The translations under genes and the position numbers were made by a program. 64,000 bases of DNA, from positions 124,001 to 188,000 of the forward strand of contig NZ_JABKDE010000001.1 of NCBI RefSeq assembly GCF_013623835.1. The letters run 5' to 3'. Shown piece by piece: positions 4,245-64,000 of the stretch (the stretch's first letter is position 1; the number at the start of each line of letters is the position of its first letter). The notes under the pieces were generated by a model. The model did no database searches, was not told the origin of the DNA, and was given only the letters and a program-made list of their open reading frames with translations. The DNA comes from Brevibacterium oceani (GTDB lineage Bacteria > Actinomycetota > Actinomycetes > Actinomycetales > Brevibacteriaceae).

Positions 4245-4265
4245 GATGTGGTTACACTGTCAATC

Positions 4266-4904
4266 ATGAAATCGTATGGACAGTACTGCGGCCTCGCTCG
4301 GGCAGCCGAGGTGCTGGGGGAGAGGTGGTCGCTCATCATCCTCCGTGACCTCCTCATCGGGCCGAAACGCTTCAACGAGCTGCGTCAGGGCATCCCCGGA
4401 ATCCCGTCGAACCTCTTGACCACCCGGCTGCGAGAACTCGAATCCAGCGAGATCGTCGAACGCAGCCTCGAAGGGCGCCACGTCGTCTACCGGCTCAGCG
4501 ACTACGGCAATGACCTCGGGCCGGTGCTCATCGGACTCGGACGATGGGGCTCTCGCCGCCTCGGTGCCCCGCGAGAGGGAGAGGCGCCGACGAACAGCTC
4601 CCTGGCCGCCGCACTGATGACGTCCCGCACGGGGGACGCAGTCGAGCCATTCACCGTCGAGGTGACCGCGGGCCCGGCCATCGCGCACGCCGCCGTGTCC
4701 GCGACCGGTGTCGACCTGGCCGAAGGCGCCGATCCGCACGCGCAGCTCTTCGTCGGCGGATCCGGACTGTGGGATCTCCTCGCCGATGGCGATGCACAGG
4801 CGGCGCTTGCGGCCGGAACCGTGACAGTGGGCGGCGACCAGCGCCTGCTGGCCGAGTTCGTTCGGGCCTTCCGCGCCCCGCTCGACGAGGCAGTCGGCAG
4901 CTAG
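4266..4904 (+). CDS. HxlR-type winged-helix regulator with C-terminal SCP2-like domain
   Basis: Residues 1-95 are an HxlR-type DNA-binding domain: YCGLARAAEVLGERWSLIIL followed by RDLLIGPKRFNELR and LLTTRLRELE, the classic pattern of one-component winged-helix repressors. A C-terminal half of about 110 residues (ending in QRLLAEFVRAF) resembles the SCP2-like domain attached to some regulators of this class, probably a ligand pocket. I start at the ATG at 4266; a GTG at 4248 is possible. It is divergent from the DHFR-like enzyme with a palindrome between them, so it probably controls that gene and itself. The inducer is unknown. Confidence 0.8.
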   Translation: MKSYGQYCGLARAAEVLGERWSLIILRDLLIGPKRFNELRQGIPGIPSNLLTTRLRELESSEIVERSLEGRHVVYRLSDYGNDLGPVLIGLGRWGSRRLGAPREGEAPTNSSLAAALMTSRTGDAVEPFTVEVTAGPAIAHAAVSATGVDLAEGADPHAQLFVGGSGLWDLLADGDAQAALAAGTVTVGGDQRLLAEFVRAFRAPLDEAVGS

Positions 4905-4955: not shown

Positions 4956-5015
4956 ATTGTTTGGTCGATCCACCGTGTTTCTGACGAGCAGAACGCGCCG
5001 GATCGACCAAACACT
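4956..5015. repeat. 60-bp palindromic element, copy 1 (intergenic)
   Basis: A 20-bp left arm (ATTGTTTGGTCGATCCACCG), a 20-bp spacer and a 20-bp right arm that is its approximate reverse complement (17 of 20). A second copy with the same 20-20-20 build lies at 62651-62710 inside ispD. It lies downstream of the converging HxlR-type gene and pstB. This is a REP-like dispersed palindrome. Confidence 0.75.
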
Positions 5016-5134: not shown

Positions 5135-5914
5135 TCACCCGAAGCGGCCGGAGATGTAGTTCTCGGTCTCTTCCTTGTCCGGGTTGGAGAAGATCGACGA
5201 AGTCTCGTTGAACTCGATGAGCTTGCCCGGCTTGCCGGTGCCGGCGATGTTGAAGAACGCGGTCTTGTCGGACACGCGTGCGGCCTGCTGCATGTTGTGC
5301 GTGACGATGACGACCGTGTACTTGTCCTTGAGGTCGTTGATGAGGTCCTCGATCGCCAGCGTCGAGATCGGATCGAGGGCCGAGCACGGTTCGTCCATGA
5401 GCAGGACCTCGGGTTCGACGGCGATTGCGCGGGCGATGCACAGTCGCTGCTGCTGACCGCCGGAGAGTCCGGAGCCGGGCAGGTTGAGGCGGTCCTTGAC
5501 CTCGTTCCAGAGGTTCGCTCCGCGCAGGGCACGCTCGGTGAGGTCGTCGGCTTCGGACTTCGACAGGCGCCTGTTGTTCAGGCGCACCCCGGCGAGCACG
5601 TTCTCCTTGATGCTCATGGTCGGAAACGGGTTCGCACGCTGGAAGACCATGCCGACCTCGCGGCGGACGTTGACGGGGTCGACGCCGGCGCCGTAGATGT
5701 TGTTGCCGTCCATGAGGACCTCGCCGGAGACGCTGGCTCCCGGGATGACTTCGTGCATGCGGTTGAGCGTGCGCAGCACGGTGGACTTGCCGCAGCCGGA
5801 GGGGCCGATGAAGGCGGTCACGGAGCGGGGTTTGATCTGCATCTGCACACCGTCGACGGCGCGGAAGTCGCCGTAGAAGATGTCGAGATCCTTGATGTCG
5901 ATCTGCTTGGACAT
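5135..5914 (-). CDS. pstB: Phosphate ABC transporter ATP-binding protein PstB
   Basis: The ATPase of the high-affinity phosphate importer, 259 residues, the usual PstB length. Walker A is GPSGCGKST at residues 37-45, the signature LSGGQ is at 150-154, Walker B LLMDEP at 171-176 and the switch histidine at 206. The run [16 protein letters not shown] is specific to PstB. It works as a dimer on the cytoplasmic face of PstC-PstA. It is the last gene of the minus-strand order pstS-pstC-pstA-pstB, 52 bp after pstA. phoU, often next in line, is instead at 57.4 kb beside senX3-regX3. Confidence 0.97.
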
Positions 5915-19217: not shown

Positions 19218-19228
19218 CCCCTCCAATT

Positions 19229-19286
19229 ACTACCTGACGGCGGCCCAGCAACCTCGCGCAAGGTTGCTGGGCCGCCGTCAGGTAGT
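19229..19286 (+). terminator. 26-bp perfect hairpin after gabT
   Basis: 19229-19254 and 19261-19286 are exact reverse complements around a 6-base loop (CGCGCA). The stem starts ACTACCTGACGGCGG. There is no T-run. The strength suits termination, but 26 perfect base pairs is far more than a terminator needs, so a dispersed palindrome is an alternative. Confidence 0.75.
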
Positions 19287-19318
19287 TCGGGGGAGGGGGA
19301 TGTAGCACAATAGAGGCC

Positions 19319-29409: not shown

Positions 29410-31064
29410 TGACTGACTTGAGCTTCGAGAACGTCTCGATCACGTACCGTTCGTCCTCCGACCGCGGCGACGTCGTGGCCGTGAAGGATGTCAGCCTCGA
29501 CCTGCCCGCGGGAGCCACGCTGGGCATCGCCGGGGAATCCGGGTCGGGGAAGTCGACGCTGATCATGTCGGCCCTGCGGCTGCTGCCCAAGTCGGCCCGG
29601 CTGGACGGGCGGGTCCTCCTCGGCGGGAAGGACCTGCAGGACCTCAACTTCGGGCAGATCCGCGCGGTCAGGTGGGCGCAGGCCTCGATCGTGTTCCAGG
29701 GTGCCCTGCATTCGCTCAACCCCGTCCGCGAAGTCGGGGGCCAGATCATCGAGGCGCTGACACACCATGCGAAGGATACGTGGACGACCCCGGAGAAGCG
29801 TCGGGATCGGATGTTCGAACTCTTAAGCGAGGTCGACCTCGACCGGTCGAAGGCCATCGCCTACCCGCACGAGCTCTCCGGCGGACAGAAGCAGCGGATC
29901 ATGATCGCCATGGCGCTCGCGTGCGAACCGGACATCATCATCGCCGACGAACCGACCACCGCCCTCGACGTCATCGTGCAGAAGCAGATCCTGTCCGGGC
30001 TCGCCGCCCTCGTCGCCGAGCGCGGGATCTCGCTGCTGATGATCAGCCACGACCTGGCCGTGCTCTCGGCGGTGTGCGCGAATCTCGCGATCATGCGGCA
30101 CGGGAAGCTCGTCGAATACGGCCCCAGCGACGAGGTGTGTCTGCGCCCGCAGGAGGAGTACACGAAGCAGCTCGCCGGTGCGTTCCCGCAGATCGGAGAC
30201 CCCGAATCCCGGCTGAATCCCAGGACCCTCAAGCCCGCCGAGGTGACCCGGGCGCAGCCGTACACCATGGGTGACGAGGTGGTGCTCGAGGCGAAGGACC
30301 TCAGCGTCTCCTTCGACACCCGGCATGGTCGGGAGAGAGCCGTGCGCGGCGTGGACCTGGCGCTGCACAAGGCAGAGATCCTCGCCGTCGTCGGCCAGTC
30401 CGGTTCGGGGAAGACGACCCTGGCGCGGTCGCTGCTGGGGCTGCAGGAGGTGGAGCCGGACTCGCAGCTGTCGTTCGCGGGCAAGCCGCTGCCGAAGAAG
30501 GCGAAGGCGCTGCGGACCTTCCGCCGACAGGTGCAGATGATCCTCCAGGACCCGTCGGGGTCCCTCAACCCCAAACGCAGCGTCTACGAGGCGGTGGTCG
30601 AAGGGCTGCGCGTGCAGGGGATCAGGGACCGCGAGTACGAAAGGGTCGTCGGGGCCCTCGAAGCCGCCGAGCTCACGCCGGCCGCGGACTATCTCGAGTC
30701 GATCCCGCAGGAGCTCTCCGGCGGACAGCGGCAGAGGGTCGTCATCGCCGGGGCGCTCGCCCTGGACCCGCAGGTGCTCATCGCCGACGAGCCGGTGGCG
30801 TCCCTGGACGCCTCGGTGCGCGGGGAGATCCTGTCGCTGTTCCTCGCGCTGAAGAAGAACCTCGGCATGAGCGCACTCATCATCACCCACGACCTGGGCC
30901 TGGCCTGGAACATCGCGGATACAGTGGCAGTGATGAAGAAAGGCGAGATTGTGGAATACGGTGATGTCGACACGGTCCTGAAGGACCCGCAGCACGCCTA
31001 CACGCAGGAACTGCTCGCCGCGGTTCCGCGACTGGGAAGTCAGAGTCTGGTGAGGAATGAGTAG
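29409..31064 (+). CDS. Fused dual ATPase of oligopeptide ABC transporter (DppD-DppF-type)
   Basis: One 551-residue chain carries both ATPase domains that are usually separate. First domain: Walker A GESGSGKST at 42-50 and signature LSGGQKQR near 155. Second: Walker A GQSGSGKTT near 327 and signature LSGGQRQR near 435. Each has its own Walker B (IIIADEPTTALD, VLIADEPVASLD) and switch His (SHDLAVLS, THDLGLAW), so both sites look active. The C-terminal OppD-type extension after domain one is short. The ATG overlaps the dppC-type stop by one base. Confidence 0.95.
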   Translation: MTDLSFENVSITYRSSSDRGDVVAVKDVSLDLPAGATLGIAGESGSGKSTLIMSALRLLPKSARLDGRVLLGGKDLQDLNFGQIRAVRWAQASIVFQGALHSLNPVREVGGQIIEALTHHAKDTWTTPEKRRDRMFELLSEVDLDRSKAIAYPHELSGGQKQRIMIAMALACEPDIIIADEPTTALDVIVQKQILSGLAALVAERGISLLMISHDLAVLSAVCANLAIMRHGKLVEYGPSDEVCLRPQEEYTKQLAGAFPQIGDPESRLNPRTLKPAEVTRAQPYTMGDEVVLEAKDLSVSFDTRHGRERAVRGVDLALHKAEILAVVGQSGSGKTTLARSLLGLQEVEPDSQLSFAGKPLPKKAKALRTFRRQVQMILQDPSGSLNPKRSVYEAVVEGLRVQGIRDREYERVVGALEAAELTPAADYLESIPQELSGGQRQRVVIAGALALDPQVLIADEPVASLDASVRGEILSLFLALKKNLGMSALIITHDLGLAWNIADTVAVMKKGEIVEYGDVDTVLKDPQHAYTQELLAAVPRLGSQSLVRNE

Positions 31065-32346
31065 CCCGTACCTCGACACCGCGCCCCTGCAGCCCGGTGA
31101 CACGGTCCGCCTCGTCGCGCCGTCCGGGCCCACCGACGAGGAGTCGCTGCTACGCGCCATCGCCCAGCTCGAATCCTGGGGGCTTCGCGTCGTGCCTGGT
31201 GAGAACGTCCGCGCCCGGCATCCGCGGGTGACGTATCTCGCCGGCACCGATGAGCAGCGCCGCAGCGACCTCGTCGACGCCTGGTGCGATCCGGACACCG
31301 ACGCCGTCATCGCCCTGCGCGGCGGATACGGCGCCATGCGGCTGCTCGACGGCATCGACTTCGACCTCATGCGCCGGCACCTGCGACGCCGAGACGGCCG
31401 ACCCAAGCTGCTCACCGGATCCTCGGACATCACCGCCCTCCACCAGGCATGGGAGCACCACCTGGGCGTGGCGACACTGTTCTGCCCGATGGTCGGCAAC
31501 GACCCGTTCAAGAGCTCGACAGTGGTCCCCGCCGAGGTGGCCTCCTGGCTGTTCCACCCTTGGGGCGGCCGCGAACTCGGTTTCCCGGCCGGTGTCGGCT
31601 CCCCTGCCGGTATCGGCGGCGCGGATGCGGGCGTCGTTGCCGGTTCGGAAGCGGACCCTGCTGCTGGCGCTGGCGTGGATTCCTCCGCCGAGCCGTCGCT
31701 TAGGTGGGCGAAACGGTCGGACGAATCCGCTGGGCAGCCGACCATTTCGCTCACCCAAGAAGGTGCCGCGGCAGATCTGCAGGGAACTGGTGCGCTGGAG
31801 ACCACTGGGCAGGGGACTGGTGCGCGAGAAGCCGCTGGGCAGGGGACTGGTGCGCTGGAGACCACCCGGCAGGGAACTGCCGTGGCGTCTCGCCCGCTCA
31901 GCCGGGCGCGGACGTTGGTTCCGGGTGAGGCGAAGGGCCGCCTCGGCGGGGGAAACCTCAGTCTTGTCGCGGCAGGGATCGGCAGTCCGGAACTGCTCGG
32001 TGCGAGCCGGTGGCGCGAGACGAACGGGCCGACGATCCTCATGCTCGAAGACGTCGACGAGGAGCTGTATCGGCTCGACAACCTCATGGTTCAGCTCGAC
32101 CGCGGCGGGTGGTTCGCCTCTGCCGATGCGGTGGTGCTCGGATCGTGGGAGGACTGCGCGCCGGTCGACGATGTCGAGGCGCTGATCATGGACTATCTCG
32201 GCGATGCGGGCATCCCGATCGTCAGCGAGATGGGGTTCGGACACGACCCGGATGCCCCGAGTGTGCCGCTCGGTGTCGCTGTCACGCTCGAAGCGCCGGC
32301 GGATGGTCGGCCGCGGATGTGGGTGCACCCGGCGGAGGACACATGA
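31057..32346 (+). CDS. LD-carboxypeptidase family S66 (LdcA/MccF-like) with repeat-bearing insert
   Basis: S66 serine peptidases cut amide bonds of L,D-peptides such as murein tetrapeptides; MccF members remove microcin C. The nucleophile is S123 in LLTGSSDITALH; ILMLEDVDEELYRLDNLM gives the Glu and MGFGHDPDAPSVPLG the His. The frame is 429 residues, about 120 above the family norm, because of an insert at about residues 173-293 rich in Gly, Ala and Thr and containing three copies of a 10-residue unit (TGALETTGQG). The insert falls before the conserved GRLGGGNLSL. The gene overlaps the ATPase by 8 bp, so it is part of the transporter operon. Confidence 0.9.
   Translation: MSSPYLDTAPLQPGDTVRLVAPSGPTDEESLLRAIAQLESWGLRVVPGENVRARHPRVTYLAGTDEQRRSDLVDAWCDPDTDAVIALRGGYGAMRLLDGIDFDLMRRHLRRRDGRPKLLTGSSDITALHQAWEHHLGVATLFCPMVGNDPFKSSTVVPAEVASWLFHPWGGRELGFPAGVGSPAGIGGADAGVVAGSEADPAAGAGVDSSAEPSLRWAKRSDESAGQPTISLTQEGAAADLQGTGALETTGQGTGAREAAGQGTGALETTRQGTAVASRPLSRARTLVPGEAKGRLGGGNLSLVAAGIGSPELLGASRWRETNGPTILMLEDVDEELYRLDNLMVQLDRGGWFASADAVVLGSWEDCAPVDDVEALIMDYLGDAGIPIVSEMGFGHDPDAPSVPLGVAVTLEAPADGRPRMWVHPAEDT
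31783..31872 (+). repeat. Three-unit, 30-bp in-frame repeat inside the S66 gene
   Basis: Three direct copies of a 30-bp unit (31783-31812, 31813-31842, 31843-31872) beginning GG(A/G)ACTGGTGCGC; the outer two are nearly identical. They keep the reading frame and lie in the non-conserved insert. Confidence 0.85.
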
Positions 32347-61661: not shown

Positions 61662-62144
61662 ATGAGTTTCCAGGTCGGCGACACTGTTGTCTATCCACAT
61701 CACGGTGCAGCGACAATCCAAGAAATCAAGAAGCGATCCATCAAGGGTGAGGAGAAACTGTATCTCAAGCTCCAGGTTGCCCACGGCGACCTAGTGATCG
61801 AGGTGCCGGCCGAGAACTGCGACCTCGTCGGTGTGCGAGACGTCGTCGGTGAGGAAGGCGTGGAAAAGGTCTTCAACGTCCTCCGCGCGGAATTCGTCGA
61901 GGAGCCCGCCAACTGGTCCCGCCGCTACAAGGCGAATCTTGAGAAGCTGCAGTCCGGCGATGTCATCAAGGTCGCCGAGGTCGTTCGTGACCTCTGGCGT
62001 CGCGAGCAGGACCGCGGCCTGTCGACCGGCGAGAAGCGCATGCTCTCCAAGGCACGTCAGATCCTCGTCTCCGAACTCGCCCTGGCCGAGAAGAAGGAAG
62101 AGTCCGAGGCAGAGGCCCTGCTGGACGAAGTGCTCGCATCCTGA
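61662..62144 (+). CDS. carD: CarD-family RNA polymerase-binding regulator
   Basis: A 160-residue CarD protein. The N-terminal RNA polymerase interaction domain starts [17 protein letters not shown]; the C-terminal domain carries the conserved region [18 protein letters not shown], whose tryptophan wedges the promoter open complex at the -10. It stabilises open complexes at rRNA and other promoters. Immediately upstream of ispD-ispF as in Mycobacterium. Its stop codon overlaps the ispD start. Confidence 0.97.
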
Positions 62145-63160
62145 GCACCTGTGTCATCATCCCGGCCGCGGGGTCGGGCTCTCGTCTGGGCGGCGGAGAG
62201 CCGAAGGCCTTCGCCCATATCCACGGGCGGAGCCTTCTGGTTCGCAGCCTCGAGACGATCATCTCCTCGGGAGTCGCCACCACAGTCGTGGTGGCCGCTC
62301 CCGAGGATTTTCTTTTGCGTGCACGTGAGGAAATCGACTCGGTAACCGAGCGCATGAATACCTCTATTCCAATCACAGCCGTAGCAGGTGGAAAAGACCG
62401 CACTGATTCGGTGCAAATCGCCTTGAAACATGTCAGTAATGCTGAGGTCGTGCTCGTCCATGACGCGGCGAGGTGCCTGACCCCGCCCGATGTGTTCCGT
62501 CGCGTGCATGCCGCGGTGCTCTCCGGCGCCGAGGCTGTCGTCCCCGTTCTGCCCATGATCGATACCGTCCGGCGGGCAGTTGTTCACCCCGCGACGGGAT
62601 CGAGCACGACCGCCGGCGATGACACGGGTGTGGATCGCACTTCCGACGGCATTGTTCGGTCGATCCGCCGCGATTCTGTCGCCGAAACCACGGTGGATCG
62701 ACCAAACAATTCTGATCCGGCAGCGGTTGTGGGAACCGCCGGGCCCTACGCTGTGGTGCGCGGAGATCTCGATCGGGCACACCTGCGACGGGTCCAGACC
62801 CCGCAGGGATTCCGCGCTATGACTCTGCTGCGCGCCTACGAACATCATGGGACCGACGATGTTGTGACTGCCGAGGGCGAGGAATCGGGCGAGGACCTCG
62901 ACGCGGTGCGCGCGGCCGTCCCCACCGACGATGCCGGCCTCGTTGAGCGTCTGGGCATCGAGGTCGTCGCCGTCGCCGGTGACGAAGAGGCACTGAAGAT
63001 CACCTATCCGCTCGACCGCATCCTCGGCGAACACCTTGCACGATTGAGAGACGCGGGCACTGACTCTGGGCGTTCTGGAAGCTCTGGGAGTTCCGAAAGC
63101 ATTGGAAGCTCGAGGAACGGTGAGATCTCGGGGAGCGGGACAGAAGGAGACCCACGATGA
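62141..63160 (+). CDS. ispD: 2-C-methyl-D-erythritol 4-phosphate cytidylyltransferase with a palindrome-coded insert and CTG start
   Basis: Makes CDP-methylerythritol from CTP and MEP. Conserved parts: [20 protein letters not shown] (residues 4-23), [38 protein letters not shown] and a C-terminal [12 protein letters not shown]. No ATG, GTG or TTG occurs in frame between the stop at 61988-61990 and the GTG at 62288, which would lose the first motif, so I start at the CTG at 62141 (CTGA overlap with carD). Residues 171-190 are coded exactly by a 60-bp palindromic element also found at 4956-5015, within a longer insert (about 155-200). The chain is 339 residues against about 230 normally. Confidence 0.88.
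62651..62710. repeat. 60-bp palindromic element, copy 2 (inside ispD)
   Basis: Left arm ATTGTTCGGTCGATCCGCCG (62651-62670), 20-bp spacer, right arm CGGTGGATCGACCAAACAAT (62691-62710); the arms are complementary at 18 of 20 positions. It has the same size and build as 4956-5015. It is in frame and codes 20 residues ([20 protein letters not shown]). Confidence 0.85.
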
Positions 63161-63642
63161 GCACGATGATTCCGCGCACCGGCATCGGTGTCGATGTGCA
63201 CGCGTTCTCCGTCGATGCCGAGCGCGAGCTGTGGGTTGCGGGTCTGCTGTGGCCGGGAGAACGCGGACTCGAGGGGCATTCGGATTCCGACGTGGCGGCC
63301 CATGCCTGCTGCGATGCGCTGTTCTCCGCTGCCGGCCTCGGTGACCTCGGTGAGCACTTCGGGGTGGATCGTCCGGAGCTCGCCGGTGCCTCGGGTGCCG
63401 ACCTCCTCAGCGAGGCGGCCCGCATCGTCCGCGACCACGGCTTCGAGGTCGGCAGCATCGCGGTCCAAGTCATCGGCAACCGACCGAAGATCGGCTCCCG
63501 CCGCACAGAAGCCCAGCAGATCCTCTCCGCCTCCGCAGGCGCCCCGGTCTCGGTGTCGGGGACGACGACAGACGGACTCGGGCTGACCGGCCGAGGCGAG
63601 GGGATCGCTGCCATCGCCTCTGCACTTGTCTACGAGAACTGA
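63157..63642 (+). CDS. ispF: 2-C-methyl-D-erythritol 2,4-cyclodiphosphate synthase
   Basis: Cyclises CDP-ME 2-phosphate, 161 residues, the usual size. Zinc ligands in GIGVDVHAF (D13, H15); the second zinc His lies in the region [17 protein letters not shown] (usually GHSDGDV, with S in place of G); [13 protein letters not shown] contains the GDLGxHF motif; [14 protein letters not shown] binds the CMP. Works as a trimer. The ATG overlaps the ispD stop (ATGA). A 42-bp gap precedes the next gene. Confidence 0.95.
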
Positions 63643-63684: not shown

Positions 63685-64000
63685 ATGAGAATCCTCTTCC
63701 AAGGAGCCGGAGCCATCGGCCTCGCCGGAGCCGCGCTGTTCACCGATGCCCACGAGGTTGCGGTCGTGTCTCGTAGGCCGGCCGCGCGGCCGCGAGCGGC
63801 CTATCCGCGCCGAGTGAGTGTCATCGATCCGAGCGGTGATCAGCGCCCGATCGGACCCGGCAACGGCAGTTCCGGCGACGGCGAGCCCGATGACAGTGAA
63901 CCCGGGGACGGCGAGCCCGGCAACGGCAGTTCAGGCGACGGCAGTTCAGGCGACGGCAGGCCCGTCAACGACAGGTCCGGTGCGCAGCCCCGTGCACATG
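63685..64000 (+). CDS. N-terminal part of a Rossmann-fold protein (ketopantoate reductase-like), truncated by window end
   Basis: The frame begins MRILFQGAGAIGLAGAALF, a dinucleotide-binding GxGxxG motif, with DAHEVAVVSRRP forming the second strand. This resembles ApbA/PanE-type 2-dehydropantoate reductases, though only the first strand-helix-strand is visible. A Gly/Asp/Ser-rich repetitive insert (GDGEPGNGSSGDGSS) begins at about residue 60, coded by repeated GGCGACGGCAGTTCA. It resembles the inserts in other enzymes here. The remainder is beyond the window. Confidence 0.6.
   Translation, partial: MRILFQGAGAIGLAGAALFTDAHEVAVVSRRPAARPRAAYPRRVSVIDPSGDQRPIGPGNGSSGDGEPDDSEPGDGEPGNGSSGDGSSGDGRPVNDRSGAQPRAH

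Follow-up and report, generated by a model that had tools for sequence, protein, structure and literature searches.

A 60-bp palindrome lies in frame within ispD in a 64,000-nucleotide stretch of the Brevibacterium oceani genome (assembly GCF_013623835.1, contig NZ_JABKDE010000001.1, positions 124,001 to 188,000; hereafter the window). This palindrome is one copy of a dispersed family, family 1, which elsewhere in the genome also brackets the gene of a 309-aa nuclease-like protein, P0122, that probably binds and spreads it. That the palindromes and the P0122-type genes belong together is well supported, and binding of the protein to its own palindrome is likely. From the predicted fold, the dispersed copies and the parallel with the REPtron (repetitive extragenic palindromic sequences, REPs, with their REP-associated tyrosine transposase, RAYT or TnpA_REP), we infer that the protein may also cut and spread the palindrome. 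The best reading is an unreported partnership of palindrome and nuclease, which would work like the REPtron with an unrelated enzyme. Comparisons were made across 59 genomes (37 Brevibacterium and 22 of the same order), cited below by G numbers, with individual loci cited by L numbers.

The ispD element was examined together with its relatives. Its codons run ATT GTT CGG ... AAC AAT, in frame with ispD and exactly 20 in number, as a sequence-only reading of the window had proposed. Positions 62651-62675 and 62686-62710 form an inverted repeat with 84% complementarity. The same reading held the insert to be absent from typical IspD, and alignment of relatives bore this out. Among 34 aligned sequences the insert peptide was 95% identical in B. 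oceani, occurred in a changed form in B. sediminis, B. permense, B. iodinum and the 'Marine' strain, and was missing from all other Brevibacterium and Rhodococcus sequences of the alignment, B. linens P0014 and B. spongiae included. At the DNA level ispD was matched in 56 of the 59 genomes, and 30 loci were fetched. An intact palindrome occupies the same place in nine of these (G000, G034, G020, G013, G007, G032, G021, G008 and G011); they were recognised by their arms with up to three changes allowed, and none has any change.

The nine ispD copies are invariant in 18 of 18 arm columns, whereas only 35 of the 132 columns of the surrounding linker are invariant and the linkers differ by 27-30% per pair. 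The arms are thus under constraint as DNA, even though the linker that contains the peptide is variable. The outer pairs of these copies change together (TTGTTT/AAACAA, TTGTTG/CAACAA, TGTCT/AGACA). Arm invariance and covariation of the outer bases suggest that recognition still constrains the ispD copy. As a separate observation, some proteins from Brevibacterium and metagenomes (P0013, P0016, P0017, P0023 and others) combine IspD with IspF in a fusion (PF02542, precomputed); in the window, ispD is followed by a separate reading frame.

The second 60-bp palindrome reported by the sequence-only reading, at 4956-5015, is likewise present, and its positions 4958-4979 and 4992-5013 are 86% complementary. 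The two copies rank second and third among the palindromes of the window with 20 of 24 pairs, compared with 17, 17 and 19 for the best palindromes of three block-shuffled windows. The description of each as a 20-bp arm, spacer and arm was a fair simplification; the unit that copies share consists of 7 bp, the 9-bp arm GGTCGATCC, 28 bp, the 9-bp arm GGATCGACC and 7 bp, with the outer seven bases conforming to ATTGTTY. Across 75 distinct copies at fetched loci, complementarity stays at 0.79-0.99 through the seventh base outside the 46-bp core and is at most 0.40 from the eighth. The ends, ATTG...CAAT, are symmetric and carry no GTAG or CGTC tag. In the same copies direct similarity is weakly raised 9-11 bases outside the core (0.34 vs 0.28, z 3.5-3.9).

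A search of the B. oceani genome with GGTCGATCC-N(20-36)-GGATCGACC gave 12 matches per strand, ten of the 12 with exactly N28, and none for the reversed pattern; the proposal of a dispersed family is thereby confirmed. Six further copies with changed arms were read by eye. The outcome in which the genome held no other copies and all relatives carried a palindrome-free insert did not occur. Exact cores were matched in 13 of the 59 genomes. Those of G003, G010 and G058 were rejected for lack of the outer ATTGTT arms, that of G003 being a palindrome of other arms, and matches at four loci in viral contigs were rejected on the same ground. The other ten genomes hold 129 matches (G000 12, G001 7, G007 17, G008 16, G011 15, G013 21, G020 2, G021 17, G032 18, G034 4), of which, among the matches listed, at least one in G013 (42 bp) is atypical. 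The number of exact cores ranges from 0 to 21 between congeners. With a crude gene caller, 17 of 36 classified copies fell between convergent genes, and there were also copies in tandem and divergent intergenic places; this classification missed the in-gene place of the ispD copy, left L060 unplaced, had two copies at an edge and included three G007 copies that were not chosen at random.

Covariation was assessed on 37 copies clustered at 85%. Seven outer pairs exceed the shuffles (z 2.6 to 7.5); the 9-bp arms in this set are conserved partly by construction, at most two changes having been allowed. RNAalifold returned ten pairs with a covariation term of almost nil.

Two family-1 copies stand 1296 bp apart in G000, at about equal spacing in G007 and G008, and the sole gene recognised between the paired palindromes is that of P0122. 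The pair is bordered by a cytochrome b gene at one end and, at the other, by genes for subunits IV and I of cytochrome oxidase. The predicted fold of P0122 combines an AbiEi-like part with a Vsr/EDxHD homing-endonuclease-like part, for which an active site is predicted from conserved acidic and histidine residues. P0122 scores 22.4 bits against PF18741, under the cut-off of 38.2; every one of the 87 homologues aligned has a PF18741 match at E <= 0.01, and 51 have one to DUF559. PADLOC and NCBIfam gave no firm name. Within the flanked interval no transposase and no toxin gene (AbiEii) was recognised, nor was an intron recognised at the locus. Orthologues of at least 72% identity are present in G021, G013, G032, G008 and G007. 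P0122 or a close orthologue thus occurs in six of the seven genomes with at least 12 copies, G000 included; the other 52 of the 59 are without one, their best match being 55%.

Whether such pairing is general was addressed at homologue loci. The P0122 search of the Brevibacterium genomes gave 97 matches in 36 genomes, and 70 were used in falling score order, except two near contig ends. For other genera (Agromyces, Microbacterium, Curtobacterium, Leifsonia, Rathayibacter, Cryobacterium, Arthrobacter and others, with some unclassified metagenome-assembled genomes), the best 80 of 280 confirmed loci were taken, found by a pattern similar to E-[YF]-[ED]-G-x-[HP]-H; Brevibacterium and Curtobacterium both belong to the order Micrococcales. 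The best palindrome was picked independently in each 1.5-kb flank, and left and right arms were compared over 18 positions. Agreement at 12 or more positions was seen in 51 of 70 Brevibacterium loci. Among 58 controls, made up of 20 random stretches, 19 ispD loci and 19 pstB loci, one reached this level; that sole control, L099, was one palindrome picked twice, so that no true control case remains. At 14 of 18 positions, with left and right flanks of different loci paired as the null, 52 of 70 Brevibacterium loci were paired, the null rates being 2.8% within the set and 0.2% across sets. In other genera 51 of 80 loci were paired, with null rates of 2.1% and 0.13%. The Brevibacterium count excludes one self-pair (L170, a short locus with overlapping flank windows), which lowered it from 53 to 52, and the null-controlled count supersedes an earlier lax 8x8 pairing (61 of 80). 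Overall, a matching pair is present at 103 of 150 homologue loci.

Nine Brevibacterium loci of the 104 then counted as paired were dropped because none yielded a protein bearing the motif E-[YF]-[ED]-G-x-[HP]-H. The motif was used for selection and is thus a filter, not a result. The remaining 95 loci group into about 40 arm families, of which 14 include Brevibacterium members and 27 members of other genera. When the palindromes of these loci were recentred on inner bases only, 153 of 190 gave a median extent of 63 bp, complementarity being lost at a half-length of 30-31. Median distances are 190 bp from the 5' palindrome to the start of the protein match and 88 bp from the end of that match to the 3' palindrome. 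Arm sequence differs by protein subfamily and tracks the N-terminal domain: arm identity correlates with protein identity at r 0.55 for the N-terminal and 0.41 for the C-terminal part, with partial correlations of 0.40 and -0.01, the N-terminal value being reached by none of 999 permutations in a Mantel test. At N-terminal identity below 0.4 arms are almost never shared, and above 0.8 they are shared in all 27 pairs.

Dispersed copies were found in all four families searched. CTGCGGGTGGATCC has 23 copies in 7 of the 59 genomes, all N28 though N26-34 was allowed, and the four genomes with at least four copies (G007, G008, G023, G033) have a homologue beside these palindromes. AACGGTTGGTA has 30 copies in 6 of the 59 genomes, 29 of them of 60 bp, with the flanked gene in four of the six. 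GAGCAGAA has 198 copies in 11 of 11 Curtobacterium genomes, none in five genomes of other genera and none in the reversed control; among the copies listed, all but one span 47 bp between pattern ends.

Several family-1 copies stand at orthologous places in several species. The gap 3' of pstB holds family 1 in G000, G008, G013, G032 and G021, a degenerate form in G007, the CTGCGGGTGGATCC family in G033 and the AACGGTTGGTA family in G006, G012, G019, G022, G028 and G036. Two explanations offer themselves: some gene ends may be favoured as targets, or a palindrome may be of use at such a place and one family takes over from another. Loci L112-L134 cover this gap in many Brevibacterium, the palindrome family differing by species; another long palindrome of the AAGTGGTCGTTCTGGTCACG...CGTGACCAGAACGACCACTT type stands beside pstB in several genomes (L115-L117, L119-L122), and L113 (G024) shows yet another family, CTGTTCGGCCACTCCACAGCAGAT...ATCTGCTGTGGAGTGGCCGAACA.

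Features of the window considered here (positions within the window).
Feature	Position	Strand	Basis or remark
Family-1 palindrome, 60 bp, in frame in ispD, 20 codons	62651..62710	.	inverted repeat, alignment, arm comparison
Left conserved arm GGTCGATCC	62658..62666	+	invariant in 9/9 ispD copies
Right conserved arm GGATCGACC	62695..62703	+	invariant in 9/9 ispD copies
ispD reading frame, host of the element	62144..63161	+	Pfam IspD 149 bits; exact start codon not settled
Family-1 palindrome, 60 bp, intergenic	4956..5015	.	between convergent hxlR-like (4248-4904, +) and pstB-like ABC ATPase (5135-5914, -) genes
Solo palindrome of another family, TTAGGTGGGCGAAACGGT arm, in frame in LD-carboxypeptidase (Peptidase_S66) gene 31057-32346	31699..31758	.	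arm match

Several steps may be proposed for the action of the P0122-type protein. A dimer would hold the palindrome with one AbiEi-like module per arm, the DNA being double-stranded, cruciform or hairpin, and the nuclease part would nick or cut it. Repair would then copy the palindrome, or the whole palindrome-gene-palindrome cassette, to another place, often near gene 3' ends. The insertion into ispD would date far back in this Brevibacterium clade; since 60 bp amounts to 20 extra codons in a variable, probably disordered linker, the protein would have tolerated it. A wider reading, plausible rather than probable, is that of a new class of mobile element in Micrococcales, in which the 60-bp palindromic target of an AbiEi-like/EDxHD nuclease is also its vehicle. 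The gene, each copy of which would cut and copy its own palindrome, would travel as a palindrome-gene-palindrome cassette, solo palindromes would be empty or abandoned sites, and the AbiEi-like module would set the choice of palindrome; dozens of private families would replace one another at the same places and occasionally write 20 codons into host proteins.

The sequence-only reading had suggested a mobile, REP/RAYT-like element. The likeness stands insofar as the palindromes are dispersed, the copy in the ispD linker keeps the frame and a nuclease-like gene lies between the same palindromes. The RAYT itself was not found: PF01797 (Y1_Tnp) gave no match in the B. oceani genome, which is 99.99% complete, and matched in 5 of 14 control genomes. 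Since no Y1 transposase was found in the genome, the family is not assigned to REP/RAYT, the flanked enzyme being of another class. To our knowledge, REP sequences are known with one type of partner enzyme, the RAYT of the Y1/HUH class. The REPtron shares with the present system palindromes that are dispersed and lie mostly near gene 3' ends, a nuclease gene standing between copies of the palindrome it belongs to, and several families matched to their genes, as described in PMC3733652, where CGTC-type REPs are reported apparently to have no dedicated transposase. It differs in its enzyme, Y1/HUH in place of AbiEi-like plus Vsr/EDxHD-like; the palindromes here are about 60 bp, symmetric and untagged, and number at most 50 copies of one pattern per genome, against usually more than 100 for REPs (as given in PMC2817692). 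Sorted by layout alone, the partnership would count as a variant of the REPtron. It is counted here as a new kind because its enzyme comes from another superfamily than that of the only comparable system known to us.

Other known systems are alike in part. Rickettsia palindromic elements also lie in frame in protein genes and add a peptide to a tolerant region, but they are about 150 bp long and no cognate enzyme is mentioned in the part of PMC10969869 available; here the palindromes are 60 bp, mostly intergenic and accompanied by a flanked nuclease-like gene, the likeness being one of layout. The EDxHD homing endonuclease I-Bth0305I has the Vsr-like catalytic fold predicted here, but the present system has full flanking palindromes, many dispersed sites per genome, an AbiEi-like DNA-binding part and no recognised intron. 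The AbiEi antitoxin and Rv2827c differ in that P0122 is fused to a nuclease-like domain and has no recognised toxin gene between its palindromes. MTES_1575/DUF559 proteins with a Vsr-like restriction endonuclease domain share the PF18741 matches of the homologues; in PMC3710099 the MTES_1575 enzyme is described as a Vsr endonuclease fused to HEPN and other domains, with palindromes never mentioned in the main text, and P0122 itself is below the PF18741 cut-off. No paper was found linking DUF559, MTES_1575 or AbiEi-nuclease proteins with flanking palindromes in a search that left subscription journals and preprints mostly outside.

The palindromes might instead be binding or RNA sites that serve the host, such as bidirectional hairpins at mRNA 3' ends or chromosome-organising sites, with the P0122 homologues as regulators that bind them and nothing mobile now. 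Nearly half of the classified copies do lie between convergent genes, orthologous copies persist across species with invariant arms, a single intergenic place holds different families by species as if it needed a palindrome, and AbiEi-type proteins are described as autoregulatory DNA binders (PMC7319586). We nevertheless consider this unlikely: the partner has a conserved nuclease-like domain, the count of exact cores varies widely between congeners, arm sequence changes wholesale between subfamilies, and copies also stand in tandem and divergent intergenic places and in ispD, with an other-family palindrome in the LD-carboxypeptidase gene. Neither of the two family-1 copies in the window is followed by a U-run after the hairpin.

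Dispersal, fixed length and inverted repeats would also fit miniature inverted-repeat transposable elements (MITEs) of an ordinary DDE insertion sequence, between two of which the P0122 gene landed by chance. A matching pair at about two thirds of the homologue loci, with some 40 arm sequences, is too frequent for accident, target duplications are not clear and no transposase was recognised between the palindromes at the P0122 locus (a systematic DDE search of Micrococcales was not made), so that a MITE origin is very improbable. Replication template switching, turning imperfect palindromes into better ones in the absence of selection, can produce covarying outer pairs of the kind seen here; it leaves unexplained the fixed length, the match to the gene flanks and the invariant GGTCGATCC arms in nine ispD genes, which do not evolve at the rate of the linker, and we regard it as a highly unlikely sole cause. 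REPs can outlive their RAYT in some lineages. A RAYT-driven REP whose RAYT was since lost is nonetheless scarcely credible here, given the lack of a Y1_Tnp match in the own genome (relatives were not searched for Y1), the different nuclease-like gene between the palindromes and the missing GTAG/CGTC end tag.

Several observations weigh against a P0122-driven palindrome family. The clearest are G011, intact arms in genomes where no close gene was found, and the absence of a recognised pair at a third of the homologue loci. G011 has 15 exact family-1 copies and no P0122 homologue match, for which recent loss, an assembly gap or another factor keeping the palindromes are alternatives. G001, with seven copies, has no closer P0122 relative than a 36% paralogue. 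Intact ispD arms occur in G011, G020 and G034, all without a close orthologue; a P0122-type nuclease alone may thus not explain arm conservation. Strongly decayed ispD copies would have been missed, since copies were recognised by their arms. The 14-of-18 test was failed by 18 of 70 and 29 of 80 homologue loci, the loci are related and the counts therefore not independent, and the Mantel test was not tree-corrected. Hardly any clear covariation is seen at the palindrome centre in the clustered set, and an earlier count on 18 copies, on which the covariation claim does not rest, was weak (20, 25, 102, 167 and 429 of 500 shuffles reach its five measures). Foldseek alone gave no match for P0122 at E <= 0.001, and the N-terminal AbiEi match has a root-mean-square deviation of 5.3. 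No report of binding, cutting or movement was found for these proteins in the literature.

Signs of movement were also sought. No clear target duplication and no direct repeat at the element edge was found over the 75 copies; old duplications could have decayed. A search around two G007 copies gave no clean empty site. Six genomes have the family-1 element at the first place; G000 has a palindrome of another family there and G021 has none, though the edges are ragged. At the second, the DNA missing from G011 (240 bp) and from G020 (160 bp) exceeds the element in length. Neither place defines a target site. With copies at orthologous places and no clean empty site, recent mobility was not borne out.

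Other repeats of the window were noted in passing. The palindrome at 31699-31758, the second protein-coding one, lies between the two Pfam domains of the LD-carboxypeptidase; its in-frame position is established from the window, relatives of the gene not having been aligned. Its arm is 17/18 identical to that of a palindrome beside a P0122 homologue in G021 (L204); judged by strength alone, 19 of 24, it does not exceed the best shuffled window. The strongest palindrome, at 19228-19287, is near-perfect over 58 bp, loopless and directly past a stop codon; it is perhaps a bidirectional terminator, and its arms matched none of the palindromes kept from the flanks of the 150 homologue loci. Close to the window end, 63850-63975 is a short imperfect tandem repeat of the GGCAACGGCAGTTCAGGCGACGG type.

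The ispD insert is a protein-coding palindrome outside Rickettsia. If the partnership between palindrome and P0122-type nuclease is true, a second, chemically unrelated partner would mean that palindrome-nuclease partnerships arose more than once, and a possible function would be at hand for a group of mostly unnamed actinobacterial proteins of the DUF559/MTES_1575 type. The roughly 40 paired arm families and DNA-binding domains form a natural catalogue, so that specificity is directly testable. If the long palindromes are recognised as predicted, these enzymes would be long-site nucleases with readable specificity.
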